A stretch of DNA of 25,735 nt from Lachnospiraceae bacterium (lineage in GTDB: Bacteria; Bacillota_A; Clostridia; Lachnospirales; Lachnospiraceae). The stretch covers positions 1-25,735 of the forward strand of contig JAEEXJ010000043.1 in the NCBI GenBank assembly GCA_016291475.1. The letters run 5' to 3'. Under the pieces are notes generated by a model, which saw only the letters and a list, made by a program, of their open reading frames with translations, had not been told where the DNA came from and did not search any database. Below, one piece after another: positions 9,042 to 25,428 of the stretch. Numbering within the stretch: the stretch's first letter is position 1; each line of letters opens with the position of its first letter. Position numbers and translations under genes: made by a program.

Positions 9042-9644
9042 ATGAATATATATGTGGATTTTGATGATTGTCTGTGCGAAACGGCAAGGCATTTCTCCGG
9101 ACTGGCAAGAGAACTTTTCGGGACTGACGTTCCCTACGAGAATATAAATTTCTTCAATCTTCAGAAGTCATTTTCTCTTACGGACGATGAGTATGTATTT
9201 ATGATGACGGAGGCTCATAAGCCGGAAGTGCTTCTGTCATATACGGAAACACCGGGGGCTTCAGAGACGGTAAATGGCTGGCTTGATGGGGGACATGATG
9301 TGTCAATCATTACAGGCAGACCCTACAGCTCATTTGAGCCATCGAGAAAGTGGCTGGATGAGCACGGGCTTGACCGCGTTAAGCTTTACTGCCTTGATAA
9401 GTACGGACGGGATAACTTCATCAAAAACAGTGAGTTTTCTCTTAAACTCGATGATTATTACAAAATGCATTTTGATCTTGCCGTAGAGGATTCACCACAC
9501 GCTTTTAAATTTTTCGACCATCTTCCGGATCTGAAAATAATGGTCTATGATCGCCCATGGAACAGGAATGTGCAGCTTCCGGGACCAAATTACAAAAGAT
9601 GCTCCGACTGGGAGATGATACGCAAATTCGGATGTAATGTATGA
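9042..9644 (+). CDS. NT5C-like HAD phosphatase, 200 aa
   Basis: A compact HAD enzyme similar to 5'(3')-deoxyribonucleotidases (NT5C family). Motif I is IYVDFDDCLCETARHF, with nucleophile Asp6 and acid/base Asp8. Motif II is SIITGRP, and motif IV is DLAVEDSPHAFKFF, the hallmark of this branch. The W-N-R-N-V-Q-L-P stretch near the C-terminus is also typical. It would remove a phosphate from a nucleotide or another small phosphoester; the context (methyltransferase, radical SAM enzyme) leaves the substrate open. Its start follows the methyltransferase stop by four bases with no strong ribosome site, so it is likely translated by coupling. The stop overlaps the next start as ATGA. Confidence 0.85.
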   Translation: MNIYVDFDDCLCETARHFSGLARELFGTDVPYENINFFNLQKSFSLTDDEYVFMMTEAHKPEVLLSYTETPGASETVNGWLDGGHDVSIITGRPYSSFEPSRKWLDEHGLDRVKLYCLDKYGRDNFIKNSEFSLKLDDYYKMHFDLAVEDSPHAFKFFDHLPDLKIMVYDRPWNRNVQLPGPNYKRCSDWEMIRKFGCNV

Positions 9645-10990
9645 AACGCCTGTATATCAAACTTATACAACCCAGAATGCTCAGACGGCCCATGGATACC
9701 GATCTAAAGCTTCATATGGCTCCTCCTTTGGGACTGTTGACGATCGTCAATCTGGTCAGGGATGAGCATTATGTTCAATTGGAGAATGAAAATATCCAAA
9801 AGATCAATTACGATGATATTCCGGATATTGTAGGATTATCAGTTACGGTGGATACCTTGCCCAGAGCCGTAAAGATTGCCAGACGATTTCGTGAGAAAGG
9901 CTGCATCGTTGTTGCCGGGGGTATCCATATCACCACCGCATATAAATATGTCCCCAAGGATGCATTTGATGTATTGTGTATTGGACCTGCGGAGGGAACA
10001 TGGCCTCAAATCCTTCAGGATTACAGTGAAAACACATTAAAACATATATACAGATGTAATAAGCAACTTACCGGCAAAGATATTGTTTCCCCGGCATATG
10101 ATTTTCTGAAAAAGGGTGAATACCTGTACTGCAATGTTGTTCATACCAGCAGGGGATGTCCTTTCAAATGCGATTTCTGTTATAACAGTGCGGGTGAACG
10201 TCAATACATCAACCGTGAATTCGAAGATGTGATCGCAGATATTAAAGCCGTTCATTCGAAACATATAATGTTCATCGACGATAATTTTGCCGGAAATCCT
10301 AAATGGACTAAGGAATTTCTCCATATGATCGAACCGATGCATATAAAATGGAGTGCGGCGGTATCCATTAATGCGGCCTTTGATGATGAACTTTTGGATC
10401 TTATGAAGAGTTCCGGATGCAGAAGCTTGTTCATAGGATTTGAAAGCATTAATCATTCGTCGGTCAGCGGAGTTCATAAAGTTCAGAATCATGTGAGGGA
10501 ATATGAAAAAGCCATCAGGGCGATTCATAAACGCGGGATAATGATCAACGCCAGTTTTGTATTCGGACTGGATGGAGATACCACGGATACCTTTAGGAAC
10601 ACTCTTGACTGGATAGTTAAGAATAGGATCGAAACGGTTACGTCTCACATTCTTACCCCATATCCGGGAACGGCTCTTTATGACAGGATGGAAGCGGAAG
10701 GAAGAATTCTTACTCGAAAATTGTCCCTGTACAATACTGCACATGTGGTATATCGTCCCAGGAATATGACAAGGGAGGAATTGTACCGCGGATATCTTCA
10801 GATCTATAAGGACATATACAGTTTCAAAAATATTATCAGGAGATGTCCGAAAGCACCGGAAATACGAGCAGCTTATTTTTTGTTTAATTTCCTTTATCGT
10901 AAGTACGGTAAATTTACCGATGCTCTTTGCCGGATTGTTACTTATGAGAAAATAGGACTGGTTGCCGGAAAACTATCGGGCTTTATATGA
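9641..10990 (+). CDS. B12-binding-domain radical SAM protein, 449 aa
   Basis: The N-terminal 140 residues form a Rossmann-like cobalamin-binding fold (DIVGLSVTVDTLPRAVKIA, then CIVVAGGIHITT); the DxHxxG base-off His motif is absent, as in many members. The radical SAM core follows: HTSRGCPFKCDFCYNSAG carries Cys173, Cys177 and Cys180 for the [4Fe-4S] cluster that cleaves S-adenosylmethionine. FIDDNF, a substrate-side SINAAFDDELLDLMKSSGCRSLFIGFES, and SFVFGLDGDTTDTF are standard B12-rSAM segments. A basic C-terminal region (residues about 370-449) is extra. Members do methylations, ring closures or rearrangements in natural product and cofactor pathways. It is the likely centre of the surrounding operon. 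ATG 9641 overlaps the upstream stop. Confidence 0.93.
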   Translation: MKRLYIKLIQPRMLRRPMDTDLKLHMAPPLGLLTIVNLVRDEHYVQLENENIQKINYDDIPDIVGLSVTVDTLPRAVKIARRFREKGCIVVAGGIHITTAYKYVPKDAFDVLCIGPAEGTWPQILQDYSENTLKHIYRCNKQLTGKDIVSPAYDFLKKGEYLYCNVVHTSRGCPFKCDFCYNSAGERQYINREFEDVIADIKAVHSKHIMFIDDNFAGNPKWTKEFLHMIEPMHIKWSAAVSINAAFDDELLDLMKSSGCRSLFIGFESINHSSVSGVHKVQNHVREYEKAIRAIHKRGIMINASFVFGLDGDTTDTFRNTLDWIVKNRIETVTSHILTPYPGTALYDRMEAEGRILTRKLSLYNTAHVVYRPRNMTREELYRGYLQIYKDIYSFKNIIRRCPKAPEIRAAYFLFNFLYRKYGKFTDALCRIVTYEKIGLVAGKLSGFI

Positions 10991-11004
10991 TTGAGAGGCA
11001 GATA

Positions 11005-11682
11005 ATGGTTAAAGCTGTAATTTTTGATATGTTTGAAACTCTGGTTTCATTGTTCGAAGGGAGAACTTATTTCGGCGAACACATAGCAGCCGATGTCGGG
11101 GCAGATCCCGCTGAGTTTCGAAAAGAATGGCATTCCATAGAAAAAGACAGGAGCATCGGAACGTATACCATCGACGAAGGCCTTGAGGTCGTCTTGAAAA
11201 GACTTGGTATTTACTCGGAAGAAAAAGTAGAACTTGCCGCCTCGAAAAGGCGTGACAGTCTTACGGATACATTCGCCGGGATACCGGATGCTACATTTGA
11301 ACTATTGGATGAACTGAAGAAAAGGCATTTAAAGATCGGACTGATCACCAATACTTTTTCGGATGAGCGTGATTATATAAGAGACAGCAAACTGTTCCCA
11401 TATTTTGATGTAGCACTCATCTCATATGAACAGGGAATCTGCAAGCCCGATCCCGAGATGTTCGGACGTATGATAAGGGAGCTTGGACTTAAGCCTGAAG
11501 AGTGCCTGTATGTGGGGGACGGAGGCTCAAAGGAACTGTATGCGGCAAGGGAAGCCGGTATGCATCCGGTTCAGTGCACATGGTTCCGCGATATGGCCTA
11601 TGAGCCCCATATTCCCTGCCCGATCCTTGATGAATTCGACCGTGCGGATAAACAGCTCGATATCTTGAAATACCTTGTATGA
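11005..11682 (+). CDS. HAD-superfamily hydrolase, 225 aa
   Basis: The third HAD-fold protein of the operon. Motif I is AVIFDMFETLV with Asp8; Phe10 replaces the second Asp of DxDxT, as aromatic residues do in haloacid dehalogenase-type sequences (D-x-Y/F). Motif II is IGLITNTFSDE, motif III Lys is in EQGICKPDPEMF, and motif IV is CLYVGDGGSKELYAAREAG. The helical cap spans roughly residues 20-95. Classification suggests either a dehalogenase-like enzyme or a phosphatase; the Phe makes ordinary phosphatase chemistry doubtful. ATG 10987 overlaps the upstream stop, but GAGAGG at 10993-10998 makes ATG 11005 more likely. The gene ends 51 bases before a strong terminator, so it closes the operon. 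Confidence 0.88.
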   Translation: MVKAVIFDMFETLVSLFEGRTYFGEHIAADVGADPAEFRKEWHSIEKDRSIGTYTIDEGLEVVLKRLGIYSEEKVELAASKRRDSLTDTFAGIPDATFELLDELKKRHLKIGLITNTFSDERDYIRDSKLFPYFDVALISYEQGICKPDPEMFGRMIRELGLKPEECLYVGDGGSKELYAAREAGMHPVQCTWFRDMAYEPHIPCPILDEFDRADKQLDILKYLV

Positions 11683-11733: not shown

Positions 11734-11771
11734 AAAAATAAGGATAGAGTTATTCCTATCCTTATTTTTTT
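11734..11771 (+). terminator. Rho-independent terminator after the radical SAM operon
   Basis: AAAAATAAGGATAG (11734-11747) and CTATCCTTATTTTT (11756-11769) form a perfect 14-bp stem with an eight-base loop, running into a T tract. The A-rich left side could also stop transcription from the opposite strand. Confidence 0.88.
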
Positions 11772-11787
11772 ATGTAATGATTTGAGT

Positions 11788-11840: not shown

Positions 11841-14432
11841 ATGGCTAATGGTCTGGTCTTTACAAATGAAAAATGCGTAGGCTGTAACAAGTGCATTGCC
11901 GTTTGCAGTGCAATGGGAGCCTGCATTTCCGCTAATTCCGAGAAAAACGGTAATTCCAGAATAAACGTCGATCCCTCAAAATGTGTGGGATGCGGCGCTT
12001 GTTTTGATGTCTGTGAACATGGTGCCAGAGAATTCTGCGATGATACGGATGCTTTTTTTGAAGATCTCGCATCCGGCAAGGAAATCTCGATTCTGGTGGC
12101 ACCTTCATTTCGAGCAAATTATCCCGATGAATACGAGAAGATACTCGGCGGTCTCAAGGCGCTTGGCGTAAGGCATATTATTAATGTCGCCTTCGGAGCC
12201 GATATCTCTACCTGGGGTTATATCAAATATATTCAGGAGAAGGGTTTTACCGGCGGTATTTCTCAGCCCTGTCCCGCAGTCGTTACCTATATTGAAAAAT
12301 ATCTCCCCGAGCTTCTCCCGAAACTTTTCCCCGTTCAGAGCCCCCTTATGTGCGCGGCTATCTATGCGAGAAAAGAAATGGGCATTACTGACCGTTTTGC
12401 TTTCATAAGCCCCTGTATAGCCAAGAAGCTTGAGATAGACGATCCCGAAAATTCGGGACTTGTGGATTATAATGTTACATTTAATCATCTGATGAAGGTT
12501 GTCCGTGAGCGTTCGATATACGGAGAGCCTGTTAAGGATGAGATCGAATATGGCCTGGGATCCATTTATCCCATGCCGGGCGGTCTTAAGGATCATGTGA
12601 AGTGGTTCTTGGGAGACAGTGCCTTTATCCGCCAGATCGAAGGCGAGAAGCAGATGTATGAATATCTCAGGAAACAATCCTCACACCTTGTGGGTAAGGA
12701 TAACCCTTTCCTGTTTATTGATGCACTTAACTGCAAGGACGGATGCCTGTGCGGTACAGGAACCGAGCCTGAGCTTGCATCCACCGACAGAGCGCTCTTC
12801 AATCTTCTGAAGATCCGCGAGGGACTGAAAAAAGAAGACGGTGATTCGGCAATGTCCAAATCACTGCTTCCGGAGCAGCGTCTTGAAAAACTCAATGAGC
12901 AGTTTGCAGGCCTTCAGCTGTCGGATTATATGCGCAGTTACACGGATCTTTCATCGAAGTGTGCTATCAAGATACCGACTGAAGATGAACTTGATAATAT
13001 CTTCCTTACGATGGATAAGGCCACACCGGAATCGCGCCGTATTAACTGCGGATCCTGCGGATACAACACCTGTATCGAAATGGCTACCGCTATCTTCAAC
13101 GGATTCAACCGCAGGGATAACTGTGTACACTATCTGAAGAATGCGATAGAAGCGGAACACAAGAGTCTTATATACAACGCTCAGCATGATGAACTCCTTG
13201 GCATTTACAACAGATCCTATGCCATGGATCTTCTTATAATCAATTCGGATTACTGGAAGAATGCATCTTATGTAATGGCCGATATTGACGGCTTTAAGGG
13301 AATCAATTCCACTTACGGACATGAGCTTGCGGATCAGATACTGATGAATGCTGCGGTAGGTCTCTTGCAGCTCGCCAGGGATAAAGGCTGGCTTCTTGCA
13401 AGGTACGGCGGAGACGAATACCTGATCTGCCTGCCTGAACCGATGACGGAAGATCACCCTTTCCTGGACATGATACGCGGAGTTTTTGAACAGCCCTTCC
13501 GCTTGGGAAGCATTGAACTTCAGCTTTCCGCATGTCTCGGTGTTTCGAATTCGGACAGCAGTCTCAGCACTGAAGAAAATATAAACCATGCCGAAGAAGC
13601 TATGCGCGAAGCCAAGAAGCTTGGATATGACCGCACTGTTTTCTACAGCGAGATACTTCAGGAAAAGGCAAGAGAAGAAAAGCTCATCCGTGAGAAGATA
13701 GTCGATGCCTTTGAAAATGACGGTTTTTACATAGTCTATCAGCCCAAGGTTGATGCGCAGACGGTCAAGCTGTGCGGATTTGAGGCTCTTATCAGGATGA
13801 AGGAACCAGGATTCGGACCGGCCAAGTTTATTCCCATTGCCGAAAAGCATGGATGGATCTGGCGTATAGGACGTATGACCACCGAACTGGTTGTACGCCA
13901 GCTTGCGGAGTGGAGAGAAGCGGGATATGAACTTCATCCGGTTTCCGTTAACTTCTCAAGTAACCAGCTGAGCGATACCGGATATGTGGATTTCCTGGAA
14001 GAGCTGCTCAAACAATATGACATTCCTTCGAAGTATATAGAAGTCGAGATCACGGAGGGAATCTTCCTTGACCGCTCTTCACAGGTTGAAGCGCTGTTCA
14101 GGAGATTTAAGGATCTGGGCATCAGGCTTCTCATGGATGATTTCGGAACGGGTTATTCGTCACTCGGTTATCTGACATATATTCCCGTGGATACCATCAA
14201 GCTTGATAAGTCGCTTGTAGATAATTATCTGATTGACGGAAAGGACGCATTCATCAATGACGTTATCAGACTGGTCCATCATCTGGATAAAGAGATGACC
14301 ATAGAAGGTGTCGAGGAGAGGTGGCAGTATACACGTCTGAGGGAATTCGGTGCGGATACGATTCAGGGCTTTTATTTCAGCAAACCTTTGCCTGCGGATG
14401 AAGCCATAAACTTCACACCGGGTGAAAGTTGA
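11841..14432 (+). CDS. Sensory [FeFe]-hydrogenase-like protein fused to GGDEF and EAL domains, 863 aa
   Basis: Domains in order. Two ferredoxin clusters: Cys12/15/18/22 and Cys48/51/54/58. Hydrogenase large-subunit C-terminal domain: L1 motif SQPCPAV with Cys144, L2 PCIAKKLE with Cys192, Lys195 and Glu198, L3 Cys298-KDG-Cys302, so all four H-cluster cysteines are present. An extra Fe-S motif: Cys403, 406, 411 and 428. GGDEF: DIDGFK at 481-486 and GGDEY at 523-527, without a recognisable inhibitory RxxD site. EAL: EAL at 648-650, DDFGTGYSS at 766-774, IEGVEE at 821-826, all usual residues seen. Sensory hydrogenases (HydS) normally end in PAS or kinase/phosphatase outputs; here the output would make and/or break cyclic di-GMP. 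ATG 11841 follows GAAG with six-base spacing. Probably cytosolic. The proton-relay Cys of L1 is Pro143. Confidence 0.93.
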   Translation: MANGLVFTNEKCVGCNKCIAVCSAMGACISANSEKNGNSRINVDPSKCVGCGACFDVCEHGAREFCDDTDAFFEDLASGKEISILVAPSFRANYPDEYEKILGGLKALGVRHIINVAFGADISTWGYIKYIQEKGFTGGISQPCPAVVTYIEKYLPELLPKLFPVQSPLMCAAIYARKEMGITDRFAFISPCIAKKLEIDDPENSGLVDYNVTFNHLMKVVRERSIYGEPVKDEIEYGLGSIYPMPGGLKDHVKWFLGDSAFIRQIEGEKQMYEYLRKQSSHLVGKDNPFLFIDALNCKDGCLCGTGTEPELASTDRALFNLLKIREGLKKEDGDSAMSKSLLPEQRLEKLNEQFAGLQLSDYMRSYTDLSSKCAIKIPTEDELDNIFLTMDKATPESRRINCGSCGYNTCIEMATAIFNGFNRRDNCVHYLKNAIEAEHKSLIYNAQHDELLGIYNRSYAMDLLIINSDYWKNASYVMADIDGFKGINSTYGHELADQILMNAAVGLLQLARDKGWLLARYGGDEYLICLPEPMTEDHPFLDMIRGVFEQPFRLGSIELQLSACLGVSNSDSSLSTEENINHAEEAMREAKKLGYDRTVFYSEILQEKAREEKLIREKIVDAFENDGFYIVYQPKVDAQTVKLCGFEALIRMKEPGFGPAKFIPIAEKHGWIWRIGRMTTELVVRQLAEWREAGYELHPVSVNFSSNQLSDTGYVDFLEELLKQYDIPSKYIEVEITEGIFLDRSSQVEALFRRFKDLGIRLLMDDFGTGYSSLGYLTYIPVDTIKLDKSLVDNYLIDGKDAFINDVIRLVHHLDKEMTIEGVEERWQYTRLREFGADTIQGFYFSKPLPADEAINFTPGES

Positions 14433-14445
14433 TGCGGAGGGATTC

Positions 14446-15075
14446 ATGAACGAAAACATTGTAAAAAGAAACCGCCTGCTTGCGGAGAAAGTTATCAAGG
14501 GACTTGAATCCCGCAATATGAAAGGATATTACGCGGATAACAGAGAGGATGCTTTAAGGATCGCTCTCGAACTTATTCCGGAAAAGTCTTCCGTCACCAT
14601 GGGAGGCGCCATGAGTGCACATGAGATCGGACTTGTGGATGCTCTCAAGGAAGGTGATTATGATTTTCTGGACAGGGATAAGGCTGAGGATAAGAGAGCA
14701 GCAATGCTTGCGGCTTATGACGCCGATTTCTTTTTGACATCCGCAAATGCCATGACAGAGGACGGAGTCATGGTAAATATTGACGGCAACTCCAACAGAG
14801 TATCTGCAATAGCCCAGGGACCCAAGCATGTTCTGGTTATTGTCGGAATGAATAAGATATGTCCGGATGTGGATTCGGCTATGAAAAGAGCCAGAAATGT
14901 GGCAGCTCCCATAAATGCACAGCGCTTTGGGCTTAACACTCCCTGTGCCAAAACAGGATCCTGCATGAACTGCAAATCTCCCGATACCATCTGCTGTCAG
15001 TTCCTTATCACCAGGTTTTCAAGACATGAAGGCAGGATTCATGTTATCCTTGTGAATGATTCTTTAGGATTCTGA
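14446..15075 (+). CDS. LUD-domain lactate utilization-type protein, 209 aa
   Basis: Belongs to the LUD (DUF162/LutC-YkgG) family. Signature stretches are an N-terminal helix with AEKVIKGLESRNMKGYYAD, VTMGGAMSAHEIGLVDAL, DADFFLTSANAMTEDG and SNRVSAIAQGPKHVLVIVG. The C-terminal part holds Cys167, Cys173, Cys176, Cys183 and Cys184, seen in the stand-alone anaerobe branch and possibly metal-binding. LutC works with LutA and LutB in lactate oxidation in Bacillus; neither partner is here, so a lactate role is not assured. GGAGGG at 14436-14441 selects ATG 14446 over GTG 14422. It begins 13 bases after the hydrogenase/GGDEF/EAL stop, pointing to one transcript. Confidence 0.88.
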   Translation: MNENIVKRNRLLAEKVIKGLESRNMKGYYADNREDALRIALELIPEKSSVTMGGAMSAHEIGLVDALKEGDYDFLDRDKAEDKRAAMLAAYDADFFLTSANAMTEDGVMVNIDGNSNRVSAIAQGPKHVLVIVGMNKICPDVDSAMKRARNVAAPINAQRFGLNTPCAKTGSCMNCKSPDTICCQFLITRFSRHEGRIHVILVNDSLGF

Positions 15076-15091
15076 GGGAGAATTATTTACA

Positions 15092-15508
15092 ATGGAAGAA
15101 GTAAGAGATTATATACATACGGTTCAGTATTATGAGACCGATAAGATGGGAATAACCCACCACTCCAACTATATCAGATGGATGGAGGAAGCCAGGGTTG
15201 ATTTCCTGGCACAGATAGGATGGGATTACGCAAAGCTTGAAGAATCCGGAATAGTTTCTCCGGTATTGAACGTCACTTGTGATTTCAAACGTACCACCAC
15301 TTTTTCGGATAAGATAACCGTTAAAGCGTATGTCAAAGAATTCAACGGCGTTAAGCTTAAGTTTGCGTATGAAATGAAAAACGAAGAGGGAACAGTGGTC
15401 TTTACCGCAACTTCCCTGCATGCTTTTCTGAATAAAGAAGGAAGACCGGTGCGGATGAAGCAGGACTTCCCGGAGCTTTACGAAACAATAGAAAATCTGA
15501 TCGTGTGA
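15092..15508 (+). CDS. YbgC/FadM-type acyl-CoA thioesterase, 138 aa
   Basis: A single hot-dog-fold 4HBT domain. The family motif is intact: VQYYETDKMGITHHSNYIRW then MEEAR, with Asp17 as the likely catalytic residue and the His-x2-Tyr pattern behind it. The C-terminal strands read KRTTTFSDKITVKAYV and VFTATSLHAFLNKEG. The product would hydrolyse acyl-CoA thioesters; chain preference is not predictable, and 4-hydroxybenzoyl-CoA is only the family name. GAGGGAGAA at 15074-15082 overlaps the previous stop, supporting ATG 15092 and coupling to the LUD gene. It ends immediately before a strong inverted repeat. Confidence 0.92.
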   Translation: MEEVRDYIHTVQYYETDKMGITHHSNYIRWMEEARVDFLAQIGWDYAKLEESGIVSPVLNVTCDFKRTTTFSDKITVKAYVKEFNGVKLKFAYEMKNEEGTVVFTATSLHAFLNKEGRPVRMKQDFPELYETIENLIV

Positions 15509-22300: not shown

Positions 22301-23320
22301 ATGGCTAAAGAATTTAATTACACTATCTGCCCTGTGGCAAATGCATCATACATTGCAGCTAATCACGGATTCCTTAAAGAGAGACTCGAGAAGATCGGAT
22401 ATACTCCCGTAAAGCTTCAGACACTTGAGCAAGAGCATTGGGTTGAGCACTTCAATTATCAAAATGACAGACTTTTCCGTGAGGGCGGTAATACTCCTCC
22501 CATCTGGGCTAAGTCAAGAGGAGCAGAACCGGTTCTTATCGGACTTAATCTCATCCCCGGACAGCAGGCGATACTTGTTCGCGAAGATTCAGATATCAAA
22601 ACGGTAGCGGACCTTAAAGGTAAGAAGCTCGGAGTCCCCGACAGGATCAATGTAACAATAGATCATCAGAAGACCGCAACACTGGAAGGATTTGAAAACG
22701 CTCTTAAATCTGCAGGATTGAAGAATGAAGATGTGGAGTGGGTATTTATCAAGGATGAGACTCCTGATTATCCGGGCGGAGCAAGATGGACTTTCAAAAC
22801 CGGACTCGATTTTGAGGCACTTGATAAGGGTGAGGTAGATGCAGTGTTTATCAAACTCTCCGCTTCCGAAAGAGTTCTTGAATCAGGTAAGTACAGAAAG
22901 ATCATTAACATCGTAGCCGATCAGGACAGTGTTGATCCCGTAAACAATGAGTGGCCCAATGTTCTTACCGTAAGCCGTAAGCTTGCCGAAGAAGAACCCG
23001 AAGTGGTTGTCGAATACCTTAAAGCAGCAATAGTTGCAGCAAGATGGGCTAAGGATCACAAGGATGAAGCAGAGGAACTTCTTGCAGAGCAGACCTTTAG
23101 TACGGTAGAGCAGTATCGCAGAGCTTATCCCGCAGATTTCTACAAGCAGCTTGAGCCCAACTTCTCGGAAGCAGGTCTTAAGTCACTTCAGACCAGAGCG
23201 CAATTCCTTTATGATCACGGATTTACCGATAAGGTTGTTGATGTAAATGCATGGGCAGACAAGAGTTTCCTTGAAAGAGCACTTAAGGAACTTGAAGAGG
23301 AGGCAAGAAAAGCCGGTTGA
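22301..23320 (+). CDS. DszB-like desulfinase homologue (SsuA/NMT1 fold), 339 aa
   Basis: A periplasmic-binding-protein fold without a signal peptide, so cytosolic. It lines up well with Rhodococcus DszB, the 2'-hydroxybiphenyl-2-sulfinate desulfinase, from memory: NYTICPVANA with Cys10 against the DszB segment around Cys27, HFNYQNDRLFREGG with His50, Arg60 and Gly63 against His60, Arg70 and Gly73, then LIGLNLIPGQQAILVREDSDI, VLTVSRKLAEEEPE and YPADFYKQLEPNF. DszB cleaves C-S of a sulfinate to give sulfite. The substrate here is unknown; an NMT1-fold binding role is the alternative. Strong GGAGG at 22288-22292 serves ATG 22301. It heads an operon with an SsuA/SsuC/SsuB-type transporter. The start follows the leader ORF by 50 bases. 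Confidence 0.75.
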   Translation: MAKEFNYTICPVANASYIAANHGFLKERLEKIGYTPVKLQTLEQEHWVEHFNYQNDRLFREGGNTPPIWAKSRGAEPVLIGLNLIPGQQAILVREDSDIKTVADLKGKKLGVPDRINVTIDHQKTATLEGFENALKSAGLKNEDVEWVFIKDETPDYPGGARWTFKTGLDFEALDKGEVDAVFIKLSASERVLESGKYRKIINIVADQDSVDPVNNEWPNVLTVSRKLAEEEPEVVVEYLKAAIVAARWAKDHKDEAEELLAEQTFSTVEQYRRAYPADFYKQLEPNFSEAGLKSLQTRAQFLYDHGFTDKVVDVNAWADKSFLERALKELEEEARKAG

Positions 23321-23377
23321 TGTTTTGCAGGCAAAATGTGTTGGGGAACATAAAGAGGAAATATAAGGAGAAATATT

Positions 23378-24532
23378 ATGAAAAAACATGGATTGATCAC
23401 AAAGTTTGCAGCACTTGGACTTGCTGCTGCGCTCGGACTTGCGGGCTGCGGCGGACAGAGTGGAAGCGGTAATCAGGGATCTGAGGTATCCGAAGTGACT
23501 ATTACCGCAGAGGAAGAGGCACTTGCCAAGGAACTTCTGGAAAGAAATGTAACTGCATCCGATGTAATAACTGTCGGAGTTATCGAATCAGCCATCAAAC
23601 AGCTCAAGGAGAAGTACACCTTTGAAGAGCTGGATGATTTGAAGATCGGTTCCGGCGGCTGGGTATATCTTTCGGATAAAAACGGATGGTTTGCAGAGCT
23701 TCTCGGCGACAACAATACTAAGGTAAGCATTGTTGAAGGCGCTGTCGGAAATGAGGTTCAGCTCATGGAGAGAAATGAACTTCACCTTATGAACCGTATG
23801 CTTTATCCATTTCTTCTCTACAGAGTACAGGGTGGTGATATTACAGCGGTTGAACTTTCCGAAGATCCCGCACCCGGAATTATTACCATTCTTGTTGCTA
23901 AGGATTCTCCCTATGAGACTCTTGAGGATCTTAAGGGCGGTACCATTGCAAGCTGGAAGGCAGGATGCCAGTATGTTGCACTTATCGAGCAGACCATCGA
24001 TCTCGGATGGACAGAAGGCGTAGATTGGACTTACGCAAATGTTTCAAACAACGATATCAAGACCGCTCTTGAAGCAGGTGAAGTTGATGCAATCTCCGTT
24101 CATCCTTTCGCAAACATCAATAACGAGATCATCTCAGGTAATTTCCGTGAGATAGCAAATGCTAAAGCAGACGGAGTATATACCAACTACGGTGGTGCAT
24201 CCGTTACCTTCGCTCCTTCGGAATTTGCAGATTCACATGTAAATCTTATCAAAGCGGTTCTTAAGCTTCGTCAGCTGGTAAATGCTTATATCATTCAGAA
24301 CCCTGAAGAAACGGCAGCAGTACTTGAGACTATTACCAGAGAGCCTGCAGAAAATACCATTTGGTGGAACAACAGAAGCGCAGAGACCTTCTATTCCGCT
24401 TCAGCCCCTCTTTCACAGCTCGTTGATGATACCGACAATTATCAGAACTGGCTTATTGAGAATACCGAGGAGTTTACCGAAGACGGACGCATTGACAAGG
24501 ATACATTCTTTAATCCCAACTTCTTTGAGTAA
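23378..24532 (+). CDS. SsuA-like ABC transporter substrate-binding lipoprotein, 384 aa
   Basis: A Sec signal peptide with lipobox LAGC and lipidated Cys24 (MKKHGLITKFAALGLAAALG precedes) anchors it outside the membrane. The mature domain is a type-2 binding protein of the NMT1/SsuA family: VITVGVIESAIKQLKEKY, GIITILVAKDSPYETLEDLKGG and the hinge-side ALEAGEVDAISVHPF are typical. The partner permease and ATPase follow in SsuC/SsuB form, so it delivers a small anion, probably an organosulfur compound; nitrate, taurine or a pyrimidine precursor would also fit the family. AAGGAG at 23365-23370, seven bases before ATG 23378, is a strong ribosome site. A hairpin separates it from the permease gene. 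Confidence 0.9.
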   Translation: MKKHGLITKFAALGLAAALGLAGCGGQSGSGNQGSEVSEVTITAEEEALAKELLERNVTASDVITVGVIESAIKQLKEKYTFEELDDLKIGSGGWVYLSDKNGWFAELLGDNNTKVSIVEGAVGNEVQLMERNELHLMNRMLYPFLLYRVQGGDITAVELSEDPAPGIITILVAKDSPYETLEDLKGGTIASWKAGCQYVALIEQTIDLGWTEGVDWTYANVSNNDIKTALEAGEVDAISVHPFANINNEIISGNFREIANAKADGVYTNYGGASVTFAPSEFADSHVNLIKAVLKLRQLVNAYIIQNPEETAAVLETITREPAENTIWWNNRSAETFYSASAPLSQLVDDTDNYQNWLIENTEEFTEDGRIDKDTFFNPNFFE

Positions 24533-24539
24533 AAAAATA

Positions 24540-24562
24540 CGGGAGGGCGTAAAGCTCTCCCG
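24540..24562 (+). repeat. Intercistronic hairpin between binding-protein and permease genes
   Basis: CGGGAGGGC (24540-24548) and GCTCTCCCG (24554-24562) pair over nine positions (one G-U) with the loop GTAAA. No T tract follows, so it is more likely an RNA-stability or processing element than a terminator. Confidence 0.6.
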
Positions 24563-24576
24563 GGATAGGAATAAAC

Positions 24577-25428
24577 ATGGCAAAACCATTAACTGCGGAA
24601 GTGCCCGTAGATCAGAAAAATATAATAACTAAAATATCCGGTGACTTTGAGAGTACGAAACTCGGCCCCAGGATAGTGGCATTGATCAACACGATAGCAG
24701 TTCCTGTTTTGCTGCTTCTTGTCTGGCAGGTTCTTTCGGGATCTGGATTGTTGTTGGAAGTAATTCTTCCATCCCCTCTCAAAGTTATCAAAGCACTTGG
24801 GGCTATGATCTCTGACGGCACACTTGCTAAGGATCTTGCTATCAGCGGAAAAAGAGTATTTATCGGATATTTATGGGGCGCAGGCATAGCTCTGATACTC
24901 GGAGTTATCAGCGGACTTAATAAAGTCAGTGAGAGAGTTTTTTCACCCATCATCAATGTCATCAGACAGATTCCCCTCTATGCATGGATGCCCCTCATAA
25001 TCCTCTGGTTCGGAATCGGTGAAGTATCCAAGGAACTTATCATTGCAAGAGGCGTGCTGATCCCGATCTTCCTCAATACATTGCAGGGAATTAAAGGTGT
25101 TCAGGTAGAGTATTGTGAGCTTGCCGAGGTGCTTGAACTTAAGAGAAGTATCTTCTTAAGAAAGATCGTACTTCCTTCAGCTGTATCTTCGATCTTTACC
25201 GGACTCAGACTCGGAGCCGGAAATGCATGGATGGCCGTAGTTGCTGCAGAGATGCTCGGTGGTCTTACCGGACTCGGATACGCACTTATGAAATCAAGAG
25301 AGTTTCTCTGGTCCGATAACCTTATAGCACTTATGGTTGTCATCGGTGTAATAGGTGTGGCCATTGATGTAATACTTCATCAGATCGAACAAAGATCCCT
25401 TAAATGGAAAAGAAAGACCGTCAAGTAA
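24577..25428 (+). CDS. SsuC-like ABC transporter permease, 283 aa
   Basis: An inner-membrane subunit of the nitrate/sulfonate/taurine-type importer family. After a polar N-terminal tail of about 35 residues come hydrophobic segments at about 38-54, 98-110, 130-150, 158-174, 216-232 and 248-266. The EAA-type coupling loop for the ATPase is EYCELAEVLELKRSIFLRKI followed by VLPSAVSSIFTGLRLG, although the usual Gly in the EAA motif is replaced by Glu (LEL for LGA). IRQIPLYAWMPLIILWFGIGE is highly typical of SsuC. GATAGGA upstream marks ATG 24577. The substrate is set by the lipoprotein. Confidence 0.93.
   Translation: MAKPLTAEVPVDQKNIITKISGDFESTKLGPRIVALINTIAVPVLLLLVWQVLSGSGLLLEVILPSPLKVIKALGAMISDGTLAKDLAISGKRVFIGYLWGAGIALILGVISGLNKVSERVFSPIINVIRQIPLYAWMPLIILWFGIGEVSKELIIARGVLIPIFLNTLQGIKGVQVEYCELAEVLELKRSIFLRKIVLPSAVSSIFTGLRLGAGNAWMAVVAAEMLGGLTGLGYALMKSREFLWSDNLIALMVVIGVIGVAIDVILHQIEQRSLKWKRKTVK

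Follow-up and report, generated by a model that had tools for sequence, protein, structure and literature searches.

The closest described counterparts of the protein analysed here are the sensory [FeFe]-hydrogenases (HydS), which HydDB divides into groups C1, C2 and C3, linked to a histidine kinase, an MCP and a phosphatase, respectively, and of which TmHydS (group C) and TamHydS (group D) are examples. [NiFe]-hydrogenases are a metalloenzyme family unrelated to [FeFe]-hydrogenases, and the H-domain fold is also found in Nar1/NARFL, which keeps the cysteines without the [2Fe] subcluster, has a role in cytosolic Fe-S assembly and is not known to have a signalling output. Sensor-GGDEF-EAL proteins of the DosP type carry haem or PAS sensors. 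The layout of HydS, including a C-terminal Cx2Cx4Cx16C motif, is taken here from excerpts of PMC8163306, and the substitution pattern of sensory hydrogenases at C299, M353 and M497 from excerpts of PMC10055695. In the available portion of PMC5037454, HydDB links group C to kinases, chemotaxis and phosphatases, and a diguanylate-cyclase link, marked as putative, is given only for [NiFe] group 2c.

The window, by which we mean the whole stretch of 25,735 nucleotides analysed, encodes a protein that shares with HydS two N-terminal [4Fe-4S] motifs, four H-domain Cys ligands, changed C299, M353 and M497 positions and a C-terminal Cx2Cx4Cx16C motif. It also has a fused regulatory output, but of another type: a GGDEF-EAL pair, which is absent from C1-C3 in the portion of PMC5037454 available. 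The assignment to HydS rests on the shared features; where the output differs, the sensor's nearest relatives carry an MCP or a hybrid kinase instead. As proposed for [NiFe] group 2c, described in the same excerpt as 'diguanylate cyclase-linked (putative)' (PMC5037454), hydrogenase-type sensing would here lead to c-di-GMP; unlike group 2c with its cyclase link, the window protein has a conserved phosphodiesterase site, a single chain and an [FeFe]-type H-domain. Its output half matches the solved structures of DosP, PA0575 and PA0861, whereas its sensor is an iron-sulphur H-domain module. A previous sequence-only reading of this DNA knew of no characterised case, and the open literature that we searched, with subscription papers outside its scope, likewise yielded no example in which GGDEF or EAL is joined to an [FeFe]-hydrogenase domain; in a 2022 census of c-di-GMP sensors (PMC8846402), the terms 'hydrogenase', 'iron-sulfur' and 'Fe-S' occur 0 times. 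As far as this literature goes, the GGDEF-EAL output appears to be new among HydS-type sensors.

The sensor gene and its domains

The sensor gene is an intact forward-strand ORF of 863 aa (11841..14432) with the order 2x[4Fe-4S]/H-domain/C-terminal Fe-S/GGDEF/EAL, and it contains all the sensor elements first read from it, namely two ferredoxin clusters, the four H-cluster cysteines, the Lys/Glu pair and an additional Fe-S motif. The N-terminal two-cluster ferredoxin domain (residues 8-62, 11862..12026, + strand; Pfam Fer4_7, matching at 11-62, and Cys conservation) holds the cysteines C12, 15, 18, 22, 48, 51, 54 and 58. It is followed on the same strand by the H-domain (Fe_hyd_lg_C, residues 81-305, 12081..12755), which is supported by Pfam, Cys conservation and the predicted fold, and whose ligand codons are C144 (12270-12272), C192 (12414-12416), C298 (12732-12734) and C302 (12744-12746). 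The C-terminal Cx2Cx4Cx16C motif (PF04060, residues 401-429, 13041..13127, + strand) is followed by a helix, seen in the AlphaFold2 secondary structure, that connects the final cysteine of the motif with the output domains (residues 429-448, 13125..13184, + strand) and is probably signal-transmitting. The output consists of a GGDEF domain (residues 447-596, 13179..13628, GGDEY motif at 13407-13421), which is degenerate in most of the listed relatives, and an EAL c-di-GMP phosphodiesterase domain with all catalytic residues present (residues 618-849, 13692..14387), both on the + strand. The best NCBIfam match of the output half is DosP (249.7 bits over residues 426-855, below the cut-off of 857). 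Judged by this anatomy, a HydS-type Fe-S sensor fused to a predicted c-di-GMP phosphodiesterase is well supported.

Relatives of the sensor

For the search for relatives, residues 1-440 served as the query; the 7998 candidates sharing most words were scored, 6485 of which matched at E<=0.001, and the best 120 were listed. The domain order that was to be sought in other genomes recurs in 74 full-length GGDEF + EAL proteins among these best 120 matches, the remainder being 44 MCP-domain proteins, 640-680 aa long, and 2 truncated sequences. The 14 genome loci retrieved comprise 13 titled Lachnospiraceae and one Acetatifactor, and several come from rumen or omasum samples. Best-segment identity to the window protein is 97% for L001, 95% for L002, 91% for L006 (isolate P6A3), 89% for L003, 88% for L004 and 68% for L005.

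The same sensor is carried by hybrid histidine kinases (L007, L091, L097, L106, L110 and also L070, in whose receiver domain the contig ends) and by an MCP-REC fusion (L073). Pfam MCPsignal was found in 10 of 10 MCP-size proteins scanned, 7 of which are rows of the sensor tree or the same gene as one of these rows; on the tree itself, 'MCP-size' is a label of length. A sensor-MCP paralogue with Pfam MCPsignal is present in G002, G003, G005 and G006. In a sensor tree of 70 rows, the seven GGDEF-EAL proteins of the clade to which the window protein belongs group together (98*), surrounded by sensors fused to MCP and kinase outputs, and the GGDEF-EAL label requires two changes; a second origin of the fusion is not certain, as it involves only the two long-branch rows L108 and L112. 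The tree leaves out L010 and L014 (short), L042, L045, L047-L050 and L056-L063 (same genes again), L052 (C3-like), L078 (frame broken), L119 (partial) and sensor matches that bring no locus. L078 (G115) is an MCP-type sensor gene whose frame is broken by one stop, either a pseudogene or a sequencing error.

The GGDEF-EAL output

All residues of the window's EAL site (E648, N704, E736, E739, D766, D767, K787, E822 and Q842), which we take to be the metal- and substrate-binding site, are present, and 74 of 75 sequences (the window protein and its relatives among the matches listed) have the full catalytic set, the exception, P0102, having a gap. By comparison, the GGDEF site (D481, N489, D498, (D/E)525 and E526) is complete in only 16 of the same 75 listed sequences, 37 of which have Gln, the commonest state, at position 526. 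Because the EAL site is so much more often complete, the conserved output activity is predicted to be c-di-GMP hydrolysis. The sequence-only reading had both domains as seemingly active and fused for c-di-GMP synthesis and hydrolysis: the fusion into a single chain, in a conserved gene family, holds good, but synthesis together with hydrolysis lacks support in the form proposed, hydrolysis being the one activity whose site is conserved across the listed family.

The window's own GGDEF domain is canonical apart from F to Y, a GGDEY form that it shares with its two nearest listed relatives, P0002 and P0003. It retains D481, D483, K486, N489 and D498, and the DxD, N, D and GG(D/E)EF elements presumably make up the cyclase site, so that additional cyclase activity may exist in the window's clade. 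These residues would also suit a GGDEF-EAL half that acts as a c-di-GMP receptor or as a cyclase-dominated bifunctional enzyme instead of a phosphodiesterase; the 74 complete EAL sites against 16 complete GGDEF sites among the matches listed argue against this, and we regard it as very improbable. Two GGDEF-only relatives, P0026 and P0044 (575 aa), were considered as a cyclase-only class and rejected, since their sequences stop or lose homology inside GGDEF and thus look like truncated predictions.

Conservation of the H-domain pocket

The window protein keeps all four H-cluster cysteines together with Lys195 and Glu198 and has P143, S190 and L296 at the C299, M353 and M497 positions, residues also present in most rows compared; a Pro stands in place of the proton-relay Cys, a substitution known from some group C sensory hydrogenases (HydS). 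Neither the NCBIfam model of group A (TIGR02512, 100.5 bits, cut-off 405.95) nor that of B1 (TIGR04105, 135.6 bits, cut-off 450) reaches its cut-off. In the predicted structure the H-domain fold is intact, with a poorly predicted loop at 236-243, and the collapsed pocket that would have spoken against a working H-domain was not seen. Taken alone, the four cysteines would show no more than that a [4Fe-4S] cluster can be accommodated.

The residues around this site are also conserved. A87-P88, S167-P168, G247-G248, K195, E198 and the four Cys ligands are kept in the window's clade; the CpI numbers of pocket positions beyond C299, M353 and M497, set by alignments, are those which we take to apply. 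In the clade of seven, 16 of 16 pocket positions are invariant, compared with 170 of 245 H-domain positions (hypergeometric p 0.0023), and without L005, which leaves six members, the values are 16/16 and 204/245 (p 0.048). The contrast is larger among the 30 HydF-less rows (15/16 vs 37/245, p 4e-13; mean conservation 0.994 at pocket positions vs 0.688 for the H-domain average) and is also seen in the 35 HydF-positive rows (7/16 vs 12/245, p 8e-7). These p values ignore the relatedness of the rows and are therefore optimistic, the 16 positions were our choice, and in both the seven-member clade and the HydF-less rows the window carries its HydF-less label by inference from its relatives. On these alignments, the pocket is under constraint with or without maturases. 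The Fe-S sites are similarly stable: all 12 ferredoxin and C-terminal Fe-S cysteines are kept in each of the 30 sensor rows labelled HydF-less (window included), and on the 70-row tree the HydF label switches at least 19 times without loss of the Fe-S cysteines.

All 65 rows compared retain the C-terminal four-Cys motif, even L112 with its degenerate pocket. This would fit an H-domain that is a remnant and serves only as a folded, dimerising scaffold, sensing (for instance of O2 damage to clusters) being left to either the ferredoxin domain or the C-terminal Fe-S module. A further point in its favour comes from excerpts of PMC13104023, in which a TamHydS variant in the C-terminal cluster retains activity and H2 fails to reduce this cluster, whose signalling may hence be of a non-redox kind. 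A remnant would, however, not be expected to have a pocket conserved above the H-domain average, as it is in the HydF-less rows, and a scaffold of this kind appears decidedly improbable to us. L112 (L112:268-2853) is itself a divergent H-domain/GGDEF-EAL protein from the HydEFG-positive genome G207; the protein has lost the pocket Lys and the Gly pair and still carries the Fe-S and H-cluster cysteines.

Distribution of the maturases HydE, HydF and HydG

Known assembly of the H-cluster depends on HydE, HydF and HydG (excerpts of PMC8887013 and PMC9431212). We searched the genomes of relatives and took the window's genome to be alike. None of the three proteins was over cut-off in the six closest genomes, G001-G006; in the 14 related genomes, HydG was over cut-off in 4, HydF in 4 and HydE in 3, all among G007-G010. 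In the P6A3 genus as the tool defines it, which is also that of the window, none of 31 genomes gave a HydF match, so that an H-cluster is not assured there. In a sample of 200 genomes of the P6A3 family (Lachnospiraceae by NCBI), HydG was over cut-off in 100 and the dimer domain of HydF in 118; the profile for this domain was also run on 14 named control genomes, of which only Thermotoga maritima was positive. HydE was over cut-off in 2 of 48 genomes without HydF and HydG (control, 8 of 8 positive genomes found), and a HydG protein query found 0 of 26 HydF/HydG-less genomes (control, 3 of 3 positives found). We considered whether the missing maturases merely reflect MAG incompleteness and rejected this explanation because HydE is also missing in 46 of the 48 HydF/HydG-less genomes and HydF in all 31 of the genus, a judgement made from counts and not from completeness values.

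The sensor itself (E<=1e-60) occurs in 43 of the 200 genomes, and its presence is not linked to that of HydF (28/43 with and 90/157 without sensor; Fisher p 0.39) or HydG (24/43 and 76/157; p 0.49). Of the 25 genomes whose sensor matches were weaker (to 1e-30), 17 carry HydF and 15 HydG, and adding them leaves sensor and HydF unlinked (45/68 vs 73/132, p 0.17). As a control, we used group-A-class genes, defined by a best PF02906 match of E<1e-78, which were linked to HydF (88/132 vs 30/68, p 0.0025) and hardly to HydG (73/132 vs 27/68, p 0.052). As this control link is itself weak, little weight can be put on the lack of association between sensor and maturases. Because the maturases were not found and sensor and HydF are unlinked, the proposal that H2 is read through the H-cluster lacks support in the form in which it was first made for this DNA.

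Should a good part of the family live without HydEFG, counts of group C genes would not equal counts of H2 sensors, and its H-domain would have another cofactor route or another job. In the excerpts available, rumen data are rich in group C [FeFe]-hydrogenases, for which a role as general sensors of H2 in that habitat has been proposed (PMC6776011), and a genome survey discarded group C2 matches following its checks, which for [FeFe]-hydrogenases required a known H-domain Fe-S motif (PMC9431212).

Catalytic-type hydrogenase genes and the case for H2 sensing

Group-A-class genes were found in 132 of the 200 genomes, and 42 of these 132 are without HydF and HydG, which weakens, without leading us to reject, the argument that no HydEFG means no H-cluster. 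HydF and HydG were undetected and HydE was below cut-off in the genomes of L120 (G163), L121 (G141), L128 (G130) and L034 (G006), the first three being group-A-class genes and L034 a B1 gene. L120, from a 5.7-Mb genome, and L128, from the window's genus, are above the NCBI A6 cut-off, the P6A3 gene L034 is above that of B1 (564 vs 450 bits), and L120, L128 and L034 have canonical L2 and L3 motifs. These genes are the strongest finding against a plain reading without an H-cluster: if they work, absence of HydEFG need not mean absence of an H-cluster. A literature search directed at a lack of HydEFG found no paper. A run of 377 N lies near a group-A-class gene in L131 (G163 C1 1277000-1280500) at 2383-2759, either a gap or a withheld stretch, because of which the absences in G163 carry a small reservation.

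The sensor could accordingly be a true H2 sensor, its complete H-cluster supplied by a new maturation route or by missed maturase genes, with H2 setting c-di-GMP hydrolysis. Such a sensor would account for the four Cys, K195, E198, A87-P88, S167-P168 and G247-G248 kept in the clade, and it is in keeping with the catalytic-type genes of HydEFG-less genomes and with the divergent H-domain/GGDEF-EAL proteins in HydE/HydF/HydG-positive genomes (L108 in G090, L112 in G207). Excerpts of the literature add that Pro occurs at the C299 position in ~10% of sensory hydrogenases (PMC10055695) and that Giardia intestinalis encodes a hydrogenase but not the maturases (PMC11437800, PMC6397501). Set against this are the counts for HydF in the genus and for HydE and HydG in the maturase-less genomes searched, the missing link between sensor and maturases, and L112, which is without the pocket Lys despite its HydEFG-positive genome; overall, we consider H2 sensing rather unlikely, if a serious candidate. 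An undiscovered maturation route is conceivable in view of the catalytic-type genes of HydEFG-less genomes and of the conserved pocket residues facing the [2Fe] subcluster, and the more specific idea that a genus without detectable HydF (or, in the members tested, HydE or HydG) fills both catalytic and sensory H-domains by such a route, with an H-cluster or something like it, one of them directly setting c-di-GMP hydrolysis within one polypeptide, seems improbable.

A proposed mechanism

Redox sensing by the [4Fe-4S] clusters is at least as likely as H2 sensing through an H-cluster. The reading that we favour, and to which we give an even chance of being right, is that of a cytoplasmic Fe-S redox sensor that switches a c-di-GMP phosphodiesterase and, in this genus, most likely does without the [2Fe] subcluster that HydEFG would deliver. 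A low-potential donor such as ferredoxin would supply electrons, which would enter by way of the two N-terminal [4Fe-4S] clusters and set the state of the H-domain. The H-cluster site would hold only its [4Fe-4S] part and hence read redox state and not H2. A change in the H-domain could then pass through the C-terminal Fe-S module and helix 429-448 to GGDEF-EAL, in a switch whose direction we leave as a supposition, and by analogy with DosP-type proteins the GGDEF half would be mainly regulatory while EAL hydrolyses c-di-GMP. The MCP-fused paralogue in the same genomes may feed the same signal into chemotaxis as a presumed target behaviour.

The [4Fe-4S]-only site gains weight for two reasons: known assembly requires HydE, HydF and HydG, which went undetected in the closest genomes, and the apo form of HydS is soluble. 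In excerpts of PMC8163306 and PMC13104023, TamHydS made by E. coli lacking HydEFG is obtained as soluble apo-protein that contains four [4Fe-4S] sites. Against it stands the retained [2Fe]-facing pocket, for which a site holding a [4Fe-4S] cluster alone would seem to have no use. The window protein offers a compact test bench for these readings, as c-di-GMP hydrolysis is easy to assay and the clusters can be poised by H2, CO and redox dyes. If electron flow does act on c-di-GMP, the state of fermentation would be tied to attachment and motility.

Genomic neighbourhood

Downstream of the sensor gene, a LUD-domain gene (14446..15075, + strand) starts with an ATG 13 bases past the sensor stop and is probably co-transcribed with it; a 4HBT thioesterase-like gene (15092..15508, + strand) begins 16 bases past the LUD gene. 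Among six loci, the order sensor-LUD-4HBT-FBA is kept in L001-L004 and L006 and not in L005, the LUD gene being more distant from the sensor in L003. Upstream, a hairpin with a T run at ~11735-11775, 3' of a HAD gene, was seen by eye and was not listed by the promoter/terminator scan; given this hairpin, the sensor gene probably has its own promoter. The same scan gave no excess of promoter-like sites (6 vs 7.6 expected), and the Rfam and tRNA scans of the window returned 0 matches and 0 tRNAs, respectively. The HAD gene (10987-11682) shares four bases with the preceding gene at 9641-10990, which encodes a B12-binding radical SAM protein with DUF4070 (PF04055, PF02310, PF13282). Towards the end of the window, 22301-25428 holds two NMT1/THI5-like binding proteins followed by an ORF that by eye resembles an ABC permease, and is a probable uptake operon.
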